Origin: Blastopirellula sp.
GTDB taxonomy: Bacteria; Planctomycetota; Planctomycetia; Pirellulales; Pirellulaceae
Assembly: GCA_021298375.1 (NCBI GenBank)
Contig: JAJTFE010000004.1
Coordinates: 1-45,588 of the forward strand
DNA length: 45,588 nucleotides
Direction of reading: 5' to 3'
How positions within the stretch are numbered: the first letter of the stretch is position 1; the number at the start of each line of letters is the position of its first letter. Below, piece after piece: positions 14,618-25,577 of this stretch. A program made the position numbers and the translations under genes. The notes below the pieces were generated by a model. That model was not told the DNA's origin. It saw only the letters and a program-made list of their open reading frames with translations, and did no database searches.

Positions 14618-15775
14618 TCACTTCGTCTCGGACACTTTGTCTGGGTCAGCGTTTTCCCGGCCTTGGAGCGATGGCAACTCGTTCCCGCTCAGCCAGCCCT
14701 TGCGCCAGAAATAATAAACAAATCCAAGGGCGGTCATGGCCATCAAGCCGAGTGCGAACAGGTAGCCAAACCGCCAACCCAGTTCCGGCATGTTCCAGGG
14801 ATACTCGGTATCAAAATTCATGCCATAGACACTGGCAATGAAACTCAAGGGAATGAAAATCGTCGAGATCACCGTCAAGACCTTCATGATCTCGTTCATG
14901 CGGAAACTGATCATCGAGACATAGTAGTCCCGCAAGTCACTGCATAATTCCCGATAGGTCTCCAGAAGTTCAATTATCTGGATGCAATGATCGTGACAGT
15001 CCCGTAAGTAAAATTTCGTTTCGTCGTGAATAAAGGGAGAGGGATCGCGAATCAGCTGGTTGATTGCATCGCGCAGCGGACGGACGGAACGACGGGCAAT
15101 CAAAATGCAATTGCGAACACGGTGCAATTCATAGATCAGTTGGGGCGAACGCGAGGAATCGACCTGGTCCTCCAATTGGTCGAGCTCATCGGCAAGCCGA
15201 TCCACAACGGGGAAGTAGGAGTCAACAATCGCATCGAGCAGGGAGTAGGCGAGGTAATCCGCCGTGCACTTTGCCAGTTTCCCGCGACTCTTCCGAATCC
15301 GTTCGCGCACCGGATCGAAACAATCACCCGGATACTGTTGAACCGTGACGACGAAGTCACGCCCCAGAAACAGGCTTAACTGCTCCGACTCAATGACGCC
15401 AGTCCAGTTAATCATTCTCGAAACGAAGAAGAGGTGGGAAGGATAGTCTTCGCACTTCGAAACCTGATGCTGGTTGAGTACATCTTCCAACGCCAGCGGA
15501 TGGAGATCGAATTGTTGTCCCAACTCCCGGATTGCGTTGACATCCGCCAATCCGTCCACGTTGACCCAGACCAGCGGAAATTTCGCCCGCAATAAAGGGA
15601 GTTGCGTTAGGTCGACGATTGTCTTCTCTTCGTAGCCTCCATTGCCGAAGGCGAATACCCGCACTTGGCTGGGCTCGGCGTCGGACCGGGGAGCGAGGGT
15701 TCCCGGCGAGCGAAAACGGTTCTCCGTGTTCGGGCGCGGCTTGTGACGGAGTTTGCGACGAACGCGACGTGCCAT
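14618..15775 (-). CDS. corA: CorA-type magnesium/cobalt transporter
   Basis: This is a CorA channel for Mg2+ (also Co2+ or Ni2+) in the inner membrane. It has a basic N-terminal tail, a large cytoplasmic alpha/beta and stalk domain with LALEDVLNQHQVSKCEDYP near residue 100, and two C-terminal transmembrane helices. Between the helices lies the selectivity signature YGMNFD near residue 317. The 385 residues exceed the usual 315-370, mainly because of a charged N-terminal extension of about 35 residues (MARRVRRKLRHKPRP). The gene is followed at 57 bases by the GT2 gene. Confidence 0.93.
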   Translation of the reverse strand: MARRVRRKLRHKPRPNTENRFRSPGTLAPRSDAEPSQVRVFAFGNGGYEEKTIVDLTQLPLLRAKFPLVWVNVDGLADVNAIRELGQQFDLHPLALEDVLNQHQVSKCEDYPSHLFFVSRMINWTGVIESEQLSLFLGRDFVVTVQQYPGDCFDPVRERIRKSRGKLAKCTADYLAYSLLDAIVDSYFPVVDRLADELDQLEDQVDSSRSPQLIYELHRVRNCILIARRSVRPLRDAINQLIRDPSPFIHDETKFYLRDCHDHCIQIIELLETYRELCSDLRDYYVSMISFRMNEIMKVLTVISTIFIPLSFIASVYGMNFDTEYPWNMPELGWRFGYLFALGLMAMTALGFVYYFWRKGWLSGNELPSLQGRENADPDKVSETK

Positions 15776-16958: not shown

Positions 16959-17241
16959 GCCAGATGCCGGGAACGGGCTTTATCGCTGCGGAACGCTTGC
17001 TCACTCGGCCTGACTTTTCTGCAAGGGCAATTCAAAAACAGTCCTTGTGAGTTGTTTGCCTCGTTCTCTCCCGGCATCAACTGATTACTGGACGACGCAC
17101 GTGCCGCTGTCGGGTGACCGCCATCACTTTTGGGCTCGTTTCCCGGGCTGCTGACTTCCGGGCCGATCAACAGTCATAATGCTGGCTCTGCCCCGTCGTC
17201 TCCGATCGGGCTCGTCCCTCAACACTCGGCCGCAATCCAGC

Positions 17242-18339
17242 ATGACAACGTCGCAGCCTTTTTCTTGCATCGCGGGCGACCAGAAACGGTTGGCCGAATT
17301 ACAACTGCTGGAGAGTCGCTTGCGTGAGCTTGTCGCAGTAAGGGACCCTCAAGCCCGCTGGGTCGGCCCCGAGCTCAAAATTTGCGCTGAGCAAAAGGTA
17401 TTCGAATGGTTCCACCGCCGGGAGTGGTATGGAAAGCAGTGGTCACCTGCCGAAATCGTTGCGGGATATCTCGCTCTCAGCCGCGCTTGCCTGACAACAG
17501 CCTTCGTGATTACCCAGCGAACTGGAGCGTGTCAGCGAATTGAGAGCTCGCCCAATCGGGACCTGGCAGCGGAGTGGCTCCCCCGCTTGATTCATGGCGA
17601 AGCCTTCGCGACCGTCGGCATTTCTCACTTGACAACCAGTCGGCAGTATCAGAACCGGCCTGCCGTTGCGGCCGTCGAGACTGAGCATGGTTTTCTGCTT
17701 GAGGGCTTCAGTCCCTGGGTCACAGGAGCCGTGGCGGCCGATCTGTTCGTCGTCGGAGCTACTCTCCCGGACTCCCGCCAAGTCTTGCTCGCTGTGCCGC
17801 GGACCCTGCCGGGAGTCAAAGTACCACCGGCGAATGAGCTGCTCGCTTTGCAGGCGAGCCAGACTGGGCCCGTTGAGTTTCACTCGGTCGAGGTCCCACG
17901 TCGATATCTTTTGCAGGGACCGGCTCCGCAAGTGTTGCAGCTGGGGCTCGGCGCGGGGACAGGGGGATTGCAAACATCGACTCTCGCCTTGGGGCTGGCC
18001 AGCTCGGCGCTCGACTACCTTGGTCAGGAGTCCGATACGAGGCCAGAGCTTCATTCATTCGGGCAAGCCCTGCGGCAGGAGTGGATTGCATTACGAACCG
18101 ACTTGCTGGCTGCTGCTGATGGCCATCCGGTTTGCAGCAATGAACGGCTGCGCCAGCGCGCCAACAGTCTGGTCCTCCGCGCCACGCAAGCTGCCTTGGC
18201 CGTCGCCAAGGGAGCAGGATTCAGTCCCGGGCATCCAGTCGGCCGGTGGTGCTGTGAAGCCTTGTTCTTTCTGGTCTGGAGTTGTCCCCAGCCAGTGGTC
18301 AACGCAAATCTGTGCGAGTTGGCTGGACTTGCTGTATGA
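17242..18339 (+). CDS. Acyl-CoA dehydrogenase-like protein
   Basis: The 365-residue protein has the acyl-CoA dehydrogenase layout. An N-terminal helical domain (FEWFHRREWYGKQWSP, then GYLALSRACLTTAFVITQ) leads to a middle beta domain starting at GEAFATVGISHLTTSR and running to VEVPRRYLLQGP. A C-terminal four-helix region contains LALGLASSALDYL and ends QAALAVAKGAGFSPGHPVGRWCCEALFFLVWS. Family members are flavoenzymes that desaturate acyl-CoA or oxidise related substrates. I could not identify a reliable catalytic glutamate, and the substrate is unknown. The N-terminal region is short compared with typical 380-400 residue members. Start ATG 17242 avoids 21 non-coding-looking residues from 17179. 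No partner electron-transfer gene is nearby. Confidence 0.72.
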   Translation: MTTSQPFSCIAGDQKRLAELQLLESRLRELVAVRDPQARWVGPELKICAEQKVFEWFHRREWYGKQWSPAEIVAGYLALSRACLTTAFVITQRTGACQRIESSPNRDLAAEWLPRLIHGEAFATVGISHLTTSRQYQNRPAVAAVETEHGFLLEGFSPWVTGAVAADLFVVGATLPDSRQVLLAVPRTLPGVKVPPANELLALQASQTGPVEFHSVEVPRRYLLQGPAPQVLQLGLGAGTGGLQTSTLALGLASSALDYLGQESDTRPELHSFGQALRQEWIALRTDLLAAADGHPVCSNERLRQRANSLVLRATQAALAVAKGAGFSPGHPVGRWCCEALFFLVWSCPQPVVNANLCELAGLAV

Positions 18340-18359
18340 ACCTCTGCAGGATGGACTTA

Positions 18360-19026
18360 AACTTCGGGGGCAAGCTGCAGCTGGGCCCAAGGCTCCGCCC
18401 TCGTCCTCTTGGAGATTTTCGACTGCAAAAATCCCAGCCCTGAGGTAAAGAGTCGATTGGCGCCGTACTAATGCTCCCAAGTCGTGTCGAGGCATCAGGC
18501 TGAACAGCCTGTTTGGGAAGCTTTCAGGCGGGAGCGGTGTGGAGCGTCCCCCGGCGGGTTGCTGCCGGTATTCGCTTCGCTCGCGCTGGAGCGACTGCAG
18601 TAAATGCCAGTACCGCTGGTCGGCACTCACTGAGATTCTCAGCCACGCTGCGGCCTCGTTGCCAAAGGCAACATATCCCCGGGCCGAAAGCCGGCAACCG
18701 GTGAGCGGTTGCTCAAAGGGAAACCGACAAATGCTCACGCCAACTTAACGCGACTCTTCGACTCGCCAGTAGTCGTCGGCCGGAGAAGTGCGCTCGTTTT
18801 CCCGCGCGATCAGGACGGCGTGTTGGCTGGAGAGTAAATACTGATTCAATCTGCGATCAAAGAATGACAAGTTGATTGGAGCCTTGACCGAAAGCAACGC
18901 TGAGGTGGGGTTTGGCGGTGCTGGTCTCAGCAGCATGCTGGTCCCCAAGCCGACCGTGCCGAGCCCAATCGATCCGAGTCCTGAAAGGGTAAACGCGCGG
19001 CGCGACCGTTTGGGCTGCGTTTGCGG
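18360..19026 (-). pseudogene. Severed C-terminal half of the adjacent Ser/Thr kinase (two in-frame TAA codons)
   Basis: Downstream of the kinase stop (TAA at 19027-19029) the same frame continues. It gives a transmembrane-like segment (LSGLGSIGLGTVGLGTSML), then a region that aligns by eye with the extracytoplasmic part of the intact kinase at 23799-25577. For example, NQYLLSSQHAVLIARENERT pairs with NAFLFNKENATLVTMERLTL, and FEQPLTGCRL pairs with FSEPLAGCRL. A second in-frame TAA (18745-18747) interrupts between YWRVEESR and VGVSICRFPF. The three pieces share one frame. Similarity fades at GGALGPAAA near 18380; a shift there would reach a TAA near 18358, just before the neighbouring gene ends. 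The region is best read as a decayed sensor domain. Readthrough or sequencing error are alternatives. Confidence 0.72.
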
Positions 19027-20181
19027 TTACCAGTTTCGCCGATGAGGATTACCCGGGGTGAGGTTGCTGCCGCCTGGTTGCTTGTCGAGCGAAGCGGAAA
19101 TTGCCTGCAAACGATTCAATACTTCCAAGATATGGCTAGGCCGCTGAGCCGGTCGCTTGGCTACCAATTGCTGGAGCAGGCATTCCAATTCCTGCGGTGC
19201 CGGCAGGCCGAATCGGGTCAGCGGCTCAGGCTCAGCACTCAACGTTAATTGCACTGTCTGGATGCGAGAGACGCCGGCAAAAGGACTCTGGCCAGTAAGC
19301 AGCGCGTAGGCCAAACAACCGAGGCTGAACAGGTCTGTGCGATGGTCAACCAGTTCGCCACGAAGCTGTTCCGGCGAGCTGAATTGCGGTGTCCCGACCA
19401 CTGGCTCAGGACCCGAGTCATGCACCGAATGAGCAAGTCCAAAATCGCTCAACTTCACGCGATCAGGGAACTGATCAATCAGGACATTGCTCGGCTTCAC
19501 ATCGCGATGCAGGATTCCTTTGCGATGAGTTGCGTGCAGCGCTTCTGCCACTTGAATCAAAACGGAAAGGCCGTCCTTGATCGACAGGTTCCCCTCGGTT
19601 CGCAAGAGGGACTGCAGCGAACCGGCGGGGAGGTATTCCATCACCAGATAGGGGACTCCTGCTTGCTCGCCAACCTCATACACCTGCACCACGTGTTTAT
19701 CGCGAATCGCGGCAGTCGACCGAGCCTCTCGGAGGAATCGCTGGGTGGCTTCGACGTCCTTGGCAATTTCAGGGCCCAGCAGCTTGAGCGCGACTTGGCG
19801 GCCGAGCAGTTTGTCCTCCGCCAAGAGTACGATCGAGAATCCCCCATATCCCAGCAGGCGGAGTACCTTGAAGTGACCGATCGTGCCAAGTCCATCCTGG
19901 TCAGCGGAACCTTCCGCCCAGACGCCCCGCAAGCGGAGTGAAAGATCGACTCCAGCCGGATGAGCATTCCACCCGGAAAGAAGGCTCGGATCCCGCTCCA
20001 GTGCAGTGAGTTCCAAAAAACTCCCGGCTTGGTCGTGCAACTCCAGCATTTGCTCGACTGCCTGCAGGAGGTCTGCGTTTGCTCCAATCTCTTCGTGAAG
20101 AAAGCTGTTGCGCGCTGGCCCCGCCGGCAACCGGAGGGCGGTTGCGAAAACCTTTTCAGCGGTAACATCGGGGCGATCCAT
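19027..20181 (-). CDS. Ser/Thr protein kinase, truncated before its membrane anchor
   Basis: The kinase has all catalytic elements: glycine loop LGYGGFSIVLLAED, ATP-binding lysine in VALKLL, catalytic loop HRDVKPSNVL, DFGLA and SSPEQ, then HRTDLFSLGCLAYALLTG. The first 90 residues (AEKVFATALRLPAGPARNSF and LELHDQAGSFLE) are the N-terminal module found in planctomycete kinases that sit beside TIGR02999-type ECF sigma factors. The protein ends after 384 residues at NPHRRNW, exactly where its paralogue at 23799-25577 enters its transmembrane helix. The product, if stable, would be a soluble kinase without sensor. It follows the SUMF1-fold gene by 74 bases on the same strand, so the two are probably co-transcribed. 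Confidence 0.9.
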   Translation of the reverse strand: MDRPDVTAEKVFATALRLPAGPARNSFLHEEIGANADLLQAVEQMLELHDQAGSFLELTALERDPSLLSGWNAHPAGVDLSLRLRGVWAEGSADQDGLGTIGHFKVLRLLGYGGFSIVLLAEDKLLGRQVALKLLGPEIAKDVEATQRFLREARSTAAIRDKHVVQVYEVGEQAGVPYLVMEYLPAGSLQSLLRTEGNLSIKDGLSVLIQVAEALHATHRKGILHRDVKPSNVLIDQFPDRVKLSDFGLAHSVHDSGPEPVVGTPQFSSPEQLRGELVDHRTDLFSLGCLAYALLTGQSPFAGVSRIQTVQLTLSAEPEPLTRFGLPAPQELECLLQQLVAKRPAQRPSHILEVLNRLQAISASLDKQPGGSNLTPGNPHRRNW

Positions 20182-20255: not shown

Positions 20256-21143
20256 TTAGTTTTCTGTTCGCGAGCCCTCGGGGGAATTTCCGACCAGGAC
20301 GACGCGGAGCCCGAGATTGATGCCCCGCGAGGCTGGTCCCGCCGGGTCCCAAGGCACCCGGATCGCCGAGCGCAAGTAGGTCATGGGGCTGTTAAAGGCT
20401 CCACCTCGAAGCACGCGGTAATCGCCTGAAACTGGTCCTTTGGGGTCGGAAGCCTCTTGGGCAGGCAGGTCGTCGTACCAGTCGCTGCACCATTCCCAGA
20501 CACTGCCGTGCATGTCGTAAAAACCCCAAGGATTCGGTTTCCGACTACCGACTCGTTTCAGTTCATTCTCGGAATTGAGGGAACTCCATGCGTAGCTTTC
20601 TCCCGACGCGGGATCGTCGCCCCATGAGTAGACCGTCTTCGTCCCAGCCCGACAGGCATATTCCCATTCAGCCTCAGTGGGCAAGCGATAACTGCGCCCC
20701 GCCGCTCGCTCAACCTCCAACTCAGACAGCTTGCGACAGAATTCTTCGGCGTCGTACCAGGAGACACCATTTTCCGGGAGGCTGCCGTCAGGAGCAGTGT
20801 CTAACGGCTTACCCATCACTTCCCGGAACTGTCTGTGCGTGACCTCTTCCATCCCCAGCCAATAGGCTTCGCTGATGCGAACCGGATGTTGCTGCTCGCC
20901 CTTGAACCGATGTCGCTCGTCAGGCGGGCTTCCCATCAAGAACTCGCCCGGCTCGACTCGAAGAAAACGCATGCCGACGGAGTTTTCCTGTACCTCTTCG
21001 GCCGGGTGTCGCTTGAACGCCTCGCGTGTCCTCAAGGCCGATAATTCCTGCGCCTCGGCAATTCCCGCAAGTACCCCGACCAAGCATGCGACGCCAATGG
21101 CCAAGACCGGCGAATCGATTAACAGGAGCCGCTTCCAAATCAT
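20256..21143 (-). CDS. Secreted SUMF1/FGE-fold protein, non-FGE type
   Basis: After a signal-anchor (PVLAIGVACLVGVLAGIAEA, about residues 12-31) the chain is a formylglycine-generating-enzyme fold. Its marks are NSVGMRFLRVEPGEFLMGS, YWLGMEEVTHRQFREVMG, SYRLPTEAEWEYACRAGT, NPWGFYDMHGSVWEWCSDWY, YRVLRGGAF and NLGLRVVLV. True FGEs use a cysteine pair in the strand after RGG; here it reads RGGAFNSPMTYLRSAIR, with no cysteine. It is therefore unlikely to modify sulfatases and more likely a binding or structural domain. I chose the start at 21143 for its signal peptide. It is upstream of, and probably co-transcribed with, the truncated kinase, and divergent from the sigma factor gene. Confidence 0.9.
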   Translation of the reverse strand: MIWKRLLLIDSPVLAIGVACLVGVLAGIAEAQELSALRTREAFKRHPAEEVQENSVGMRFLRVEPGEFLMGSPPDERHRFKGEQQHPVRISEAYWLGMEEVTHRQFREVMGKPLDTAPDGSLPENGVSWYDAEEFCRKLSELEVERAAGRSYRLPTEAEWEYACRAGTKTVYSWGDDPASGESYAWSSLNSENELKRVGSRKPNPWGFYDMHGSVWEWCSDWYDDLPAQEASDPKGPVSGDYRVLRGGAFNSPMTYLRSAIRVPWDPAGPASRGINLGLRVVLVGNSPEGSRTEN

Positions 21144-21461
21144 CTTTGCATCCGTTTTGGGTAAACCCGGGTACGAGCAAACTTGAGTCAAACGCCGCCG
21201 AAATCACTCGCTGGAGGGTGAAACTCACTCGCTGACGAGCAGCCATCCAGACAGCGGTTTTCCGGGCAATATGTCTCGCCAAATTGATGGTTTTCAAGTT
21301 TTTCGAGATTTTGCCTTCCTCGGCGAACCTCGGCTTGGGCCGGCCCGGCGAATTCCAGCCTGAAAGGTGTTTTCAACCTGCTGCTTGGTGTAAACTAAAC
21401 GCGAGTATGAATTGCCTTGTTTATCGGTAATCCAAGCCAACTGCTCCCGATTGTACCCCCG
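21144..21461. promoter_or_regulatory. Shared divergent promoter region with direct repeats
   Basis: These 318 bases separate the leftward SUMF1/kinase pair from the rightward sigma/TIR pair and must hold both promoters. They contain two near-identical direct repeats, GAAATCACTCGCTG at 21200-21213 and GAAACTCACTCGCTG at 21220-21234. The shared TCACTCGCTG cores are 21 bases apart (two helical turns), 60-90 bases upstream of the leftward start. A possible vegetative -10 (TAAACT near 21391) lies before the sigma gene. These are visible patterns only; regulator identity is inference. Confidence 0.4.
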
Positions 21462-22043
21462 ATGAATGTCGCCAAAATCCCGATCAACGACATCTCAGTC
21501 CAAGACGGCCAAGACTTTGGGAATCTTGCAGATGTATTGCCAATTGTTTACGAGGAATTGCGAAGGCTAGCCCGGGCGAAAATTGCAGGGGAGGCCCCGG
21601 GGAACACCCTTCAGACCACGGCTCTTGTGCACGAGGCTTTCGTGAAGGTTGCCAACTACCACGGAGGGCTGTGGCGGAGCGAGCGGGATTTTGTCGCTGC
21701 GGCCGCTCAAGCCATGCGGCAAATTCTGGTTGATCGAGCCCGGGCCAAGCACGCCGCCCGACGCGGTGGCGGCGCTACCAAGGTCCCCGGCACGGAGTTG
21801 GAGCAATACGCCTGCCCTAACTCGGAAAAACTGCCCGAAGTGCTTCTGGTCGACCGCGCTTTGGAGCAACTGGAGTCGCAGGATCCGGAAAAAACGATGC
21901 TGGTCAAGTTGAAGTATTTTGTCGGGCTTTCGCTGGAGGAGTGTGCGGCAGCGATGGGAATTTCCCGTTCGTCAGCCTATCGCCAGTGGAACTGCGCGCG
22001 AGTCCTGCTCAAGCAGTTGATCGACAACGAACTGAAAGCCTAG
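21462..22043 (+). CDS. ECF-type RNA polymerase sigma factor (TIGR02999/PF07638 type)
   Basis: The 193-residue product has sigma region 2 (VLPIVYEELRRLARAKIAGE, then TLQTTALVHEAFVKV and RDFVAAAAQAMRQILVDRARA) and region 4 helix-turn-helix (LSLEECAAAMGISRSSAYRQW). The TLQTTALVHEA block is diagnostic of the PF07638 group, which in planctomycetes is habitually linked to Ser/Thr kinases with the AGSFLE N-terminal module instead of a classical anti-sigma factor. Two such kinases lie within 4 kb here. The open frame begins at TTG 21417; I chose ATG 21462, which gives the usual N-terminus. The TIR-SUMF1 gene starts 62 bases downstream on the same strand. Regulation by phosphorylation is an inference from the family context. 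Confidence 0.92.
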   Translation: MNVAKIPINDISVQDGQDFGNLADVLPIVYEELRRLARAKIAGEAPGNTLQTTALVHEAFVKVANYHGGLWRSERDFVAAAAQAMRQILVDRARAKHAARRGGGATKVPGTELEQYACPNSEKLPEVLLVDRALEQLESQDPEKTMLVKLKYFVGLSLEECAAAMGISRSSAYRQWNCARVLLKQLIDNELKA

Positions 22044-22105
22044 CGGAGGGTTCTGCTTTTCCCCGCCCTCGTCCTATTTGCCCTCATCAAACCGGAGTAG
22101 CTTTC

Positions 22106-23599
22106 TTGGACTGCGATATCTTTTTAAGCTACTCGCACTCAGACTTGCCGATCGCCCGCGTTATCGCACGGGAGTTGGAGGCCCGCGGCTATCGCTGTTG
22201 GTTCGCCGCCCGCGAATTACAGGCCGGCCTCCCGCCCCTGCAGGCGATTGCCAGTGGCCTCAAAGGCGCGCGTGCTGGCGTGGTGCTGGGCAGTGCTGCG
22301 GCTGAGACTTCCAGTCAAGTCCTCAGGGAGCTCGAATGGCTGGTGATCAACGATCGCCCTGTCTTTGTGCTGCAGCTCAAAGCAACTCCGGTCGCGGGCT
22401 TGTTGAGCGAGTTGCTAACGCAAGCGACGACAGTTGTTTTTCCCGAGGCGGTCGGAGCTTTTTCCTTGAGCCGCAAGAGCGCTGAATGGCAGCAGTTTTT
22501 GAACTTGTTGGAGCGGACAGGCTTGCAACCGCGGGCAACGGCCCAAAGTCAGGCACCGAAAACTCCTGGACGTTGGATGTCGGGCGAGTGGAGCGGAGCG
22601 GGACGCCTTGCGATTGCCGCTGCCTTGTTCTTCTGTTTACTGTTGGGATTGGGAGCCGTTCGGATTTGGAGCCAGTCGGGCACGGAACAGCCAATTCAAG
22701 ATGGATTTCTGGTGGACCAGACCACCCCTCACTTCTCGCCAGTTTTCAACGTGGAGAGTCTGGTGCGGGTCGAGGCTCCGCCCTCCGGTCTGCCTCGCCA
22801 ACTGCGCAATTCGATCGGGATGAAATTTGCGCTGATTCCCTCTGGCAGCTTCACCCGTCGCTCGGCACTTGCTCCGATGGAAAGTTACACCGTGACGTTG
22901 ACCAAGTCCTACTATCTGGGAGTAACGGAAGTCACGCAGCAGCAGTTTCGCGAGTTGATGGGAGTGGACGCCGCGGAAAGCGTGGAAGGCGACCTGTTGC
23001 CCGTTAATGCGGCCTCTTGGGAACAGGCGTCCGAGTTTTGTAAGCGGTTGAGTGCCCTTCCCGCCGAACAAATGGCCGGTCGAACTTATCGCTTACCCAC
23101 CGAGAGCGAGTGGGAGTTTGCAGCCCGGGCAGGAAGCGGCAAACGCTTTTTCTTCGGAGACGATATCGCCAGTCTGGAGCAGTTCGCCTGGGTAAATGAA
23201 AATTCCCGAAAACAAGTGCAGGCCGTCGGACTCAAACTCCCCAACTCCTGGGGACTCTATGATGTTTACGGCAATGTTGCTGAATGGTGCAGCGATTGGC
23301 TGGCGGAATATCCGACCGCGGGCGCAACGGACCCCCGAGGTCCCGAGAGCGGCACCTTGAAAGTTATCCGCGGCGCAGGGGTTTGGGAACATTCGCTCTC
23401 GGTACACTCGGGTCTGCGGCAATACGGCAACTCGGAATCACTCCACGGGTTCCGCGTGCTCTGCGAGGTTTCTCCTTCTATTGCCGAGAAACAACTACCT
23501 CCCCCCGGGCGCGAAAAAAGCCTCGAAGGTCCGATCGCCGACGTCCCGAATTTGTCAAAATCCGGACGGTATCGGATGGAAAATAAGTTCGACCGCTGA
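22106..23599 (+). CDS. TIR domain - transmembrane - SUMF1-fold fusion protein
   Basis: Residues 1-135 are a TIR domain (TIR_2 type): CDIFLSYSHSDLPIARVIA, LEARGYRCWFAAREL, then GVVLGSAAAETSSQVLREL, which carries the glutamate position used by NAD-cleaving TIRs. A linker leads to one transmembrane helix (RLAIAAALFFCLLLGLGAV, about 167-186). Residues about 233-455 are a SUMF1/FGE fold: NSIGMKFALIPSGSF, YYLGVTEVTQQQFRELMG, TYRLPTESEWEFAARAG, WGLYDVYGNVAEWCSDW, HGFRVLCEV. The strand after the RGA motif (RGAGVWEHSLSVHSGLRQ) has no cysteine, so FGE activity is unlikely. The topology predicts a cytoplasmic TIR and an outer SUMF1 domain. The open frame extends upstream into the sigma gene. I chose TTG 22106, which has GGAG 8 bases before it and starts immediately before the TIR strand. 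Co-transcription with the sigma factor is likely. Confidence 0.85.
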   Translation: MDCDIFLSYSHSDLPIARVIARELEARGYRCWFAARELQAGLPPLQAIASGLKGARAGVVLGSAAAETSSQVLRELEWLVINDRPVFVLQLKATPVAGLLSELLTQATTVVFPEAVGAFSLSRKSAEWQQFLNLLERTGLQPRATAQSQAPKTPGRWMSGEWSGAGRLAIAAALFFCLLLGLGAVRIWSQSGTEQPIQDGFLVDQTTPHFSPVFNVESLVRVEAPPSGLPRQLRNSIGMKFALIPSGSFTRRSALAPMESYTVTLTKSYYLGVTEVTQQQFRELMGVDAAESVEGDLLPVNAASWEQASEFCKRLSALPAEQMAGRTYRLPTESEWEFAARAGSGKRFFFGDDIASLEQFAWVNENSRKQVQAVGLKLPNSWGLYDVYGNVAEWCSDWLAEYPTAGATDPRGPESGTLKVIRGAGVWEHSLSVHSGLRQYGNSESLHGFRVLCEVSPSIAEKQLPPPGREKSLEGPIADVPNLSKSGRYRMENKFDR

Positions 23600-23798: not shown

Positions 23799-25577
23799 CT
23801 AACGTCTCACATCCAGCACCAATGCAACCTCCCCAAATTCCGGGTTGGTTCGCAGAAACTGGGCACCCGCCGGACCCAGCGAAAGGCCAGACCAAGTCAG
23901 AATGTCTTTTGAGGCATAGAGTTCCGCTTCCAGAAAGAAGCTGGTTTTTCCCCGGACCAGACTGGAAATATCGACCCAGCGTTTGGGGCCAAACAAAGCC
24001 TGGGAGTCGTCAGTGCTAATCAATGGCAGGGAGGAGCGGACTCCTGGTTCCGGCCAGAACTCAAATCGGTCTTTGGCCACATTGATCATGTCATGCAAGT
24101 CATCGAGTGCAGCCCCAACGCGAACTTTCGACCACGCCGATTCGTCGAACCCAATCGCGACAAAGGTGTTACATTTCAGCCGACAGCCCGCCAGCGGCTC
24201 GGAGAAGTCAAATCGATAGATCACCTTGCCTGCCTCACCCACGCGACTGGGCCGCCAATAATACATCGGCTTTGCCAGCGTCAGTCGTTCCATCGTCACG
24301 AGCGTGGCATTCTCCTTGTTAAACAGAAACGCGTTCAGGCTGCCGTCGTCGTGTTTCAAATTGATTTCGGGAGCGATTTGCAAGAGCGGCCGGGGCTTTT
24401 CGGATCGGGCCCGCCAAAAGGCCAACAGGCCCACCCCTGCCGCAAGCGCCGAACCACCGGCAGCCCACAGCCATTTGCGGCGGTCAGCGCGCGGCAGCTG
24501 AGGGCTTCCAACAATTTGCTCGAACTTTCTCGCAATCTGTTTGAGGTCACTCGGACGATCTTGCCTTGATTTCGCGAGTAAGCCGTTGATCAACTGCTGA
24601 AACTCTTCCGGAACCTCCAAGCCAAAGTGACTGAATGGCTCCGGCTGAAGTTCCAGTGTCATCTGGATGGTTTGCAGGCGACTGGTTCCCGAAAAAGGAC
24701 TGTGTCCCACCAGCAGCGAATAGAGCAGGCAGCCAAAGCCGAATAAGTCCGTCCGCTCATCGACTACCTCGCCGCGAATCTGTTCAGGCGAGCTGAACTG
24801 TGGTGTCCCAATCGCACGATCCTCATCTTCCATGATCAAGGACCGCGCCAACCCGAAATCACCCAGCTTGACCCGATCGGGAAAACGGTCGACGAGCACA
24901 TTGCTCGGCTTGATGTCGCGGTGCAAGAGACCTTTGGAGTGGGCCACTTCCAGAGCATCGAGGATTTGCCTCGCTACGGTCAAGGTGTCCGGGAAGCTCA
25001 ACGGTCCGCGGTTGGAAAGGAAGCTTTGCAGCGAGCCCTCGGGGAGATACTCCATCACGAAGTAGGGCATCTCGCGATATTCGCCGACTTCGTAAATGCT
25101 GACAATCTGCTCTCCGCGCAAGCCGGCAATGGTCTTGGACTCCGCCAGAAAGCGTTGTCGCTGCTGCGGCACGGCCGCCAGCGCGGGTTTTAGAATCTTG
25201 ATGGCCACGTCGCGATGCAGTCGCTGGTCCCGGGCCCGAAACACACATGCTGACCCACCTTCGCCCAGTAACTCCAGCAGCAAAAAATGCCCCAGCACGG
25301 CTAACCCGTCTGCGCCCTCCGTCCGCGGCAAGCGTTCCAGAATCTGCTCAAAGGCAACCGTCTGCTCCTGCGGCTGATTCGCCGAAACGAGAGTGTCGTC
25401 TTTCTCCCAAGCTGCGCGCTCGAGAAAACTACCTGCCTCGTCATGGACTTCCAGCAGCTTGAGCAGTTCCAGACGCAATTGGGGGTTGCCCTTCGTCGCC
25501 GTCTCAATCATGGCCGTGCGGGCGGCTCCGGGCGGCAAGTTCAGGGCTGTCGCCAGAATCTCGTCCCGCTGATCCAT
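23799..25577 (-). CDS. Ser/Thr protein kinase with transmembrane helix and C-terminal sensor domain
   Basis: The N-terminal module (RDEILATALNLPPGAARTAM, then LLEVHDEAGSFLERA) precedes a complete kinase: GEGGSACVFRARD, VAIKIL, HRDIKPSNVLVD, GDFGLARS, SSPEQ and ERTDLFGFGCLLYSLLVG. One transmembrane helix follows (KWLWAAGGSALAAGVGLLAFW, about 365-386). About 200 beta-rich residues outside the cytoplasm contain EPLAGCRLKCNTFVAIG, KDRFEFWPEP and VRGKTSFFLEAEL; I do not recognise the fold. The N-terminal module links it to the nearby ECF sigma factor, and its sequence is closest to the truncated kinase at 19027-20181, of which it is the intact paralogue. The ATG ending at 25577 has GAGG 8 bases upstream. 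It is convergent with the TIR-SUMF1 gene and lies 111 bases downstream of a PVC cytochrome gene. Confidence 0.92.
   Translation of the reverse strand: MDQRDEILATALNLPPGAARTAMIETATKGNPQLRLELLKLLEVHDEAGSFLERAAWEKDDTLVSANQPQEQTVAFEQILERLPRTEGADGLAVLGHFLLLELLGEGGSACVFRARDQRLHRDVAIKILKPALAAVPQQRQRFLAESKTIAGLRGEQIVSIYEVGEYREMPYFVMEYLPEGSLQSFLSNRGPLSFPDTLTVARQILDALEVAHSKGLLHRDIKPSNVLVDRFPDRVKLGDFGLARSLIMEDEDRAIGTPQFSSPEQIRGEVVDERTDLFGFGCLLYSLLVGHSPFSGTSRLQTIQMTLELQPEPFSHFGLEVPEEFQQLINGLLAKSRQDRPSDLKQIARKFEQIVGSPQLPRADRRKWLWAAGGSALAAGVGLLAFWRARSEKPRPLLQIAPEINLKHDDGSLNAFLFNKENATLVTMERLTLAKPMYYWRPSRVGEAGKVIYRFDFSEPLAGCRLKCNTFVAIGFDESAWSKVRVGAALDDLHDMINVAKDRFEFWPEPGVRSSLPLISTDDSQALFGPKRWVDISSLVRGKTSFFLEAELYASKDILTWSGLSLGPAGAQFLRTNPEFGEVALVLDVRR

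Follow-up and report, generated by a model that had tools for sequence, protein, structure and literature searches.

Probable loss of the sensor half of a planctomycetal Hanks-type kinase by nonsense mutation after an old duplication

Introduction

In the 45,588-nucleotide stretch of Blastopirellula sp. DNA analysed here (the window; contig C59 of an assembly that totals 3.6 Mb in 320 contigs and is 78% complete), a kinase gene ends at a TAA codon and its reading frame runs on into what resembles the sensor half of an intact paralogue. Gene content likewise suggests a planctomycete. The question raised by this locus is whether the gene (kinase A) has been cut down to its kinase, is dying as a whole, is an artefact of a draft assembly or is read through to give a receptor like its paralogue (B). 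The features needed for the answer are the following, with the basis of each call in brackets.

19027 to 20181, minus strand: kinase A, a 384-residue Hanks-type Ser/Thr kinase ORF (ORF call; PF00069; motifs in translation)
19027 to 19029, minus strand: first in-frame TAA, in the linker that joins the kinase to the membrane segment (translation, alignment)
18748 to 19026, minus strand: 93 open codons with a degraded membrane segment and the first part of the C-terminal domain (alignment, hydropathy)
18745 to 18747, minus strand: second in-frame TAA, within the conserved YWxPSxxGExG stretch of the domain (alignment)
18373 to 18744, minus strand: remainder of the decayed C-terminal domain, in-frame homology being gone at about 18370 (alignment)
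18357 to 18389, minus strand: probable third lesion, with AQ...PEV residues like the domain ending in the next frame (frame-1 translation against the family alignment, by eye)
17179 to 18339, plus strand: convergent neighbour similar to acyl-CoA dehydrogenases, with an intact end (ORF; PF02770 below cut-off; relatives)
23799 to 25577, minus strand: paralogue B, intact, with kinase, membrane segment and C-terminal domain encoded by a single ORF (ORF, Pfam, similarity)
21417 to 22043: ECF sigma factor (TIGR02999 above cut-off)

Results

The kinase half of A

Kinase A comprises 384 codons closed by the TAA at 19029-19027 of the minus strand. Its translation matches PF00069 in Pfam (E 2.2e-49, 168.7 bits against a curated cut-off of 31.7) and holds the lysine of VALK, HRDVKPSN and DFG, the catalytic Lys, HRD and DFG motifs. 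The score above cut-off and these motifs assign A to the Hanks-type Ser/Thr kinases, and its kinase half looks sound in sequence. The PASTA kinase model NF033483, of the PknB/Stk1 kind, reached 259.5 bits of the 450 needed, on the kinase part only, and Pfam gave zero matches to PASTA repeats; A is accordingly classified outside the PASTA kinases. Strong matches to the PADLOC models PD-T4-6 and MADS6 were restricted to the kinase domain, and the NCBIfam MADS6 model scored 135.5 bits against a cut-off of 460.

Paralogue B and its C-terminal domain

In proteins of the B type a cytoplasmic kinase is joined through a single membrane segment to an outer domain some 200 residues long. The last 213 residues of B match no Pfam family, and the same holds for the domain members tested; searching solved structures with the domain profile gave nothing convincing (best E 0.61), and AlphaFold2 on the B domain alone gave no usable structure (mean pLDDT 31.5). 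A single-sequence search found relatives of the domain at kinase ends in 6 of 241 genomes of the family, including the window's own, and a seven-row profile run over 396 genomes of the order found it in 42, with 57 matches listed. All 20 aligned intact relatives, B included, carry the kinase and the domain as a single-frame fusion; they were picked for both parts being readable in one ORF.

Seven intact members share invariant residues that include YW, P, G, Y and the ending GP..AQF.R. The unnamed domain lies at 23802-24440 in B and occurs also at loci L061, L062, L063, L064 and L065, with the ending GPxxAQFLR. Aligned intact members close the domain with a version of this ending and a further strand, and in most members outside the family its GP is replaced by GL or another pair.

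Two in-frame stops and a readable relic

An earlier note on this DNA had stated that the kinase ends at TAA 19027-19029, that the frame runs on to a second TAA at 18745-18747 and that no frameshift lies between them. Each of these points held: both codons (19029-19027 and 18747-18745, minus strand) share the frame of kinase A, and the family alignment needs no frameshift between them. Alignment of the translation of A with the product of 23799-25577, which the earlier note had proposed as a check, matched 18373-19017, which contains one TAA, to residues 361-572 of B (31% identity, E 1.5e-23), and the domain-profile search also recovered the relic domain of A (E 6.9e-14). The downstream B-like domain was thus borne out; the membrane helix claimed ahead of it is weak, its peak 19-residue hydropathy of 1.23 being the lowest of 21 (1.52 in B). 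The first TAA falls in the variable linker ahead of this segment. Among the 57 listed domain matches, A's is the only one with an internal stop.

Between 18391 and 19026 the frame of kinase A has one stop in 212 codons, against 6.75 expected from 5000 base shuffles (P 0.0066), so that the open frame is unusual and chance does not explain it; the other two frames have 8 and 3 stops. Codon-position GC is gene-like in both relic segments, and a codon-usage scan past the first stop gave at most a weak frame-0 signal that is too noisy to locate a frameshift. Starts lying in frame after each stop were considered for internal restart and rejected; the ATG at 18936 (minus strand), with GGGGA just upstream, could open a short ORF inside the relic to the second TAA, giving a short fragment that lacks the membrane segment. 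Repeat and promoter scans around kinase A returned nothing informative.

A probable third lesion at the domain end

The two stops are probably not the only breaks, as had been supposed. At the end of the domain the frame of A reads GPAAAC and then unrelated residues, the GPxxAQFLR ending being gone near 18370, and the shifted frame reads AQ....PEV and closes at TAA 18359-18357. The conserved ending is lost from A's frame as aligned, and inspection by eye points to a probable frameshift and truncation against the neighbour at 17179-18339. Relatives of the neighbour's 386-residue product mostly align to residues 382-386, by which comparison the neighbour runs intact to its own stop. That stop is near the one closing the shifted frame of A, and a domain of B's length in A would overlap this neighbour. 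With two TAA codons and this lost ending, A reads as no longer a membrane kinase of the B type; B still is one. The disrupting changes, and the constraint that appears relaxed beyond the stops, place A among truncated genes or pseudogenes.

Divergence of the two halves

Kinase and domain identities are 58/56, 76/75 and 87/87% in intact pairs, and 54/32% between A and B. With the tree of 21 proteins kept fixed, maximum likelihood gave branches of 0.40 for A and 0.61 for B in the kinase, and 1.25 and 0.82 in the domain. In 95% of 60 column bootstraps the A/B branch ratio of the domain exceeded that of the kinase; the bootstrap interval (log2 -0.15 to 2.51) spans zero, so that the rate contrast is suggestive and not firm. 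The tree comprised 13 loci of the order-wide profile search in which the kinase could be read and the domain ended cleanly, together with A, B and 6 copies taken from 5 fetched regions. Excluded were L090, L104 and loci without an automatically pickable frame; L075, L076 and L078 duplicated copies that the set already contained, L077 was partial, and these four were dropped too, along with the remaining kinases of the fetched regions.

Profiles built without A and B scored the two kinases alike (188.5 bits for A, 187.3 for B) and the domains at 24.4 bits for A and 47.5 for B. A retains 10 of 22 conserved domain columns and B 11, indicating that decay is modest; B's own domain is also divergent, and the intact member L099 likewise has a high domain-to-kinase branch ratio. 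In a neutral simulation two stops fit about 0.1-0.15 substitutions per site, a short divergence that makes much of the domain divergence probably older than the stops. The disconnection of the sensor half looks fairly recent and the duplication old.

Origin of the pair and its surroundings

The best match of A is B (E 6e-104; next 1e-73), the best match of B within its own genome is A, and together they form one side of a fully supported split in the tree of 21. Their kinases are 54% identical, which dates the duplication, on sequence grounds, as old. Matches to kinase A were absent from four congeners at E 1e-60 and, at E 1e-70, from a phylum sample of 392 outside its own genome; at 1e-68 an order sample of 296 gave three other genomes, each with a match less close to A than B is. 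The congeners, the order sample and the phylum sample thus yielded no orthologue of A, and the stop event is undatable by such comparison. One scan of named genomes for close orthologues, with B as query, returned only distant kinases. Two flanking genes have relatives on separate contigs of congener G004, where the stretches covered, limited by contig ends, show no kinase cluster. Genome G221, of the same family, carries two intact kinases of the same type about 5 kb apart (L061, 7061-8869 and 12516-14330; 58/56% identical in kinase/domain), an independent close pair indicating that such pairs arise repeatedly.

Between the kinases, 21417-23599 encodes the ECF sigma factor and a same-strand protein combining a TIR with an FGE-sulfatase-type domain; immediately upstream of kinase A, on the minus strand, is a second gene of the FGE type (20256-21191). 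Kinases, sigma factor, TIR and FGE genes may form one signalling or conflict module. In congener G003, a second copy (L060, contig C399) of the gene at 14618-15775 of the window holds one internal TAA. At L147 (G000:C6, 109-604), five tRNA genes (Val, Asp, Leu, Arg, Arg) lie within 500 bases, several with low Rfam scores, an arrangement that suggests a mobile element carrying a tRNA array.

Discussion

As the best and a very probable explanation of the data, A has lost its sensor half through nonsense mutation after an old duplication, leaving a soluble kinase that is predicted to be active. An old duplication of a membrane sensor kinase would have given A and B; nonsense mutations would then have disconnected the sensor half of A, which decayed; and translation stopping at TAA 19027 is predicted to yield a soluble 384-residue kinase with neither anchor nor sensor. 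Kinase A is presumably made, active, kept by selection and acting without the input that B receives. Decay after duplication leaving a soluble kinase had been the favoured explanation in the earlier note, and it is strengthened by A's being the sole one of 57 listed domain matches with an internal stop, by the domain scores and by the 1.23 membrane segment; the duplication itself, at 54% kinase identity, is old and not recent. As partial pseudogenisation the event is ordinary, a receptor-type kinase having been cut to its kinase.

That the whole gene is dying, its kinase half not yet hit, is a less likely but serious alternative, and differs from the above only in the fate of the kinase. It fits the probable third lesion downstream, the lack of orthologues of A in relatives and the short time implied by two stops, in which a kinase could escape damage by chance. 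A kinase branch shorter than B's, an equal family score and the catalytic motifs argue against it, the sensor half alone being worn. Sequencing or assembly error is very improbable: the genome is in 320 contigs and a gene of congener G003 also has one internal TAA, but an artefact would have to place two separate stops, with a probable frameshift besides, in the very half of the gene whose membrane segment is weak and whose family score is poor, and the 20 other rows of kinase matches in the genome hold no internal stops. Programmed or leaky readthrough giving a minor full-length receptor, the earlier note's other option, would accord with the frame preserved over both stops and the residual homology, but it is very unlikely and the least credible reading, since both stops are TAA, generally the tightest stop codon, the product would still be without the conserved domain ending, and no UAA-reading anticodon was found at the 38 of 39 Rfam tRNA matches called by ARAGORN in the 78%-complete assembly; with an extension less conserved than its kinase and the ending lost, A is unlikely to be a readthrough gene.

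Under loss of the sensor half with a kinase left in use, the truncation might even be adaptive, A acting untethered and independently of signal in the same pathway as B, its kinase kept while the sensor half rots, but this is rather doubtful. The shared target would perhaps be the ECF sigma factor encoded between them.

Here, in a small, clear case, nonsense mutations following duplication appear to have made a membrane receptor kinase soluble, and the half that was discarded can still be read. The locus also exposes an unnamed extracytoplasmic domain, carried by 42 of the 396 genomes searched in the order and lacking a Pfam match in the members tested. A literature search turned up neither this locus nor truncated planctomycetal kinases, which is not proof of absence.

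Comparison with known systems

According to PMC11032199, planctomycetal Ser/Thr kinases are mostly membrane-spanning and have expanded by lineage-specific duplication and/or transfer. B and the relic of A agree with the kinases described there in having a cytoplasmic Pkinase domain, one membrane segment and an outer domain; the predicted product of A differs from them in lacking the last two, and the outer domain itself has no Pfam match in any member tested. In being 384 residues long with no membrane segment, that product instead resembles the cytoplasmic Hanks-type kinases, but unlike them it would owe this state to truncation, with the relic remaining downstream. Finally, in the PknS-EcfK system, as presented in PMC13147305, a transmembrane Hanks kinase acts through an ECF sigma factor; as in such pairs, an ECF sigma gene (21417-22043) sits beside the kinases, here between A and B.
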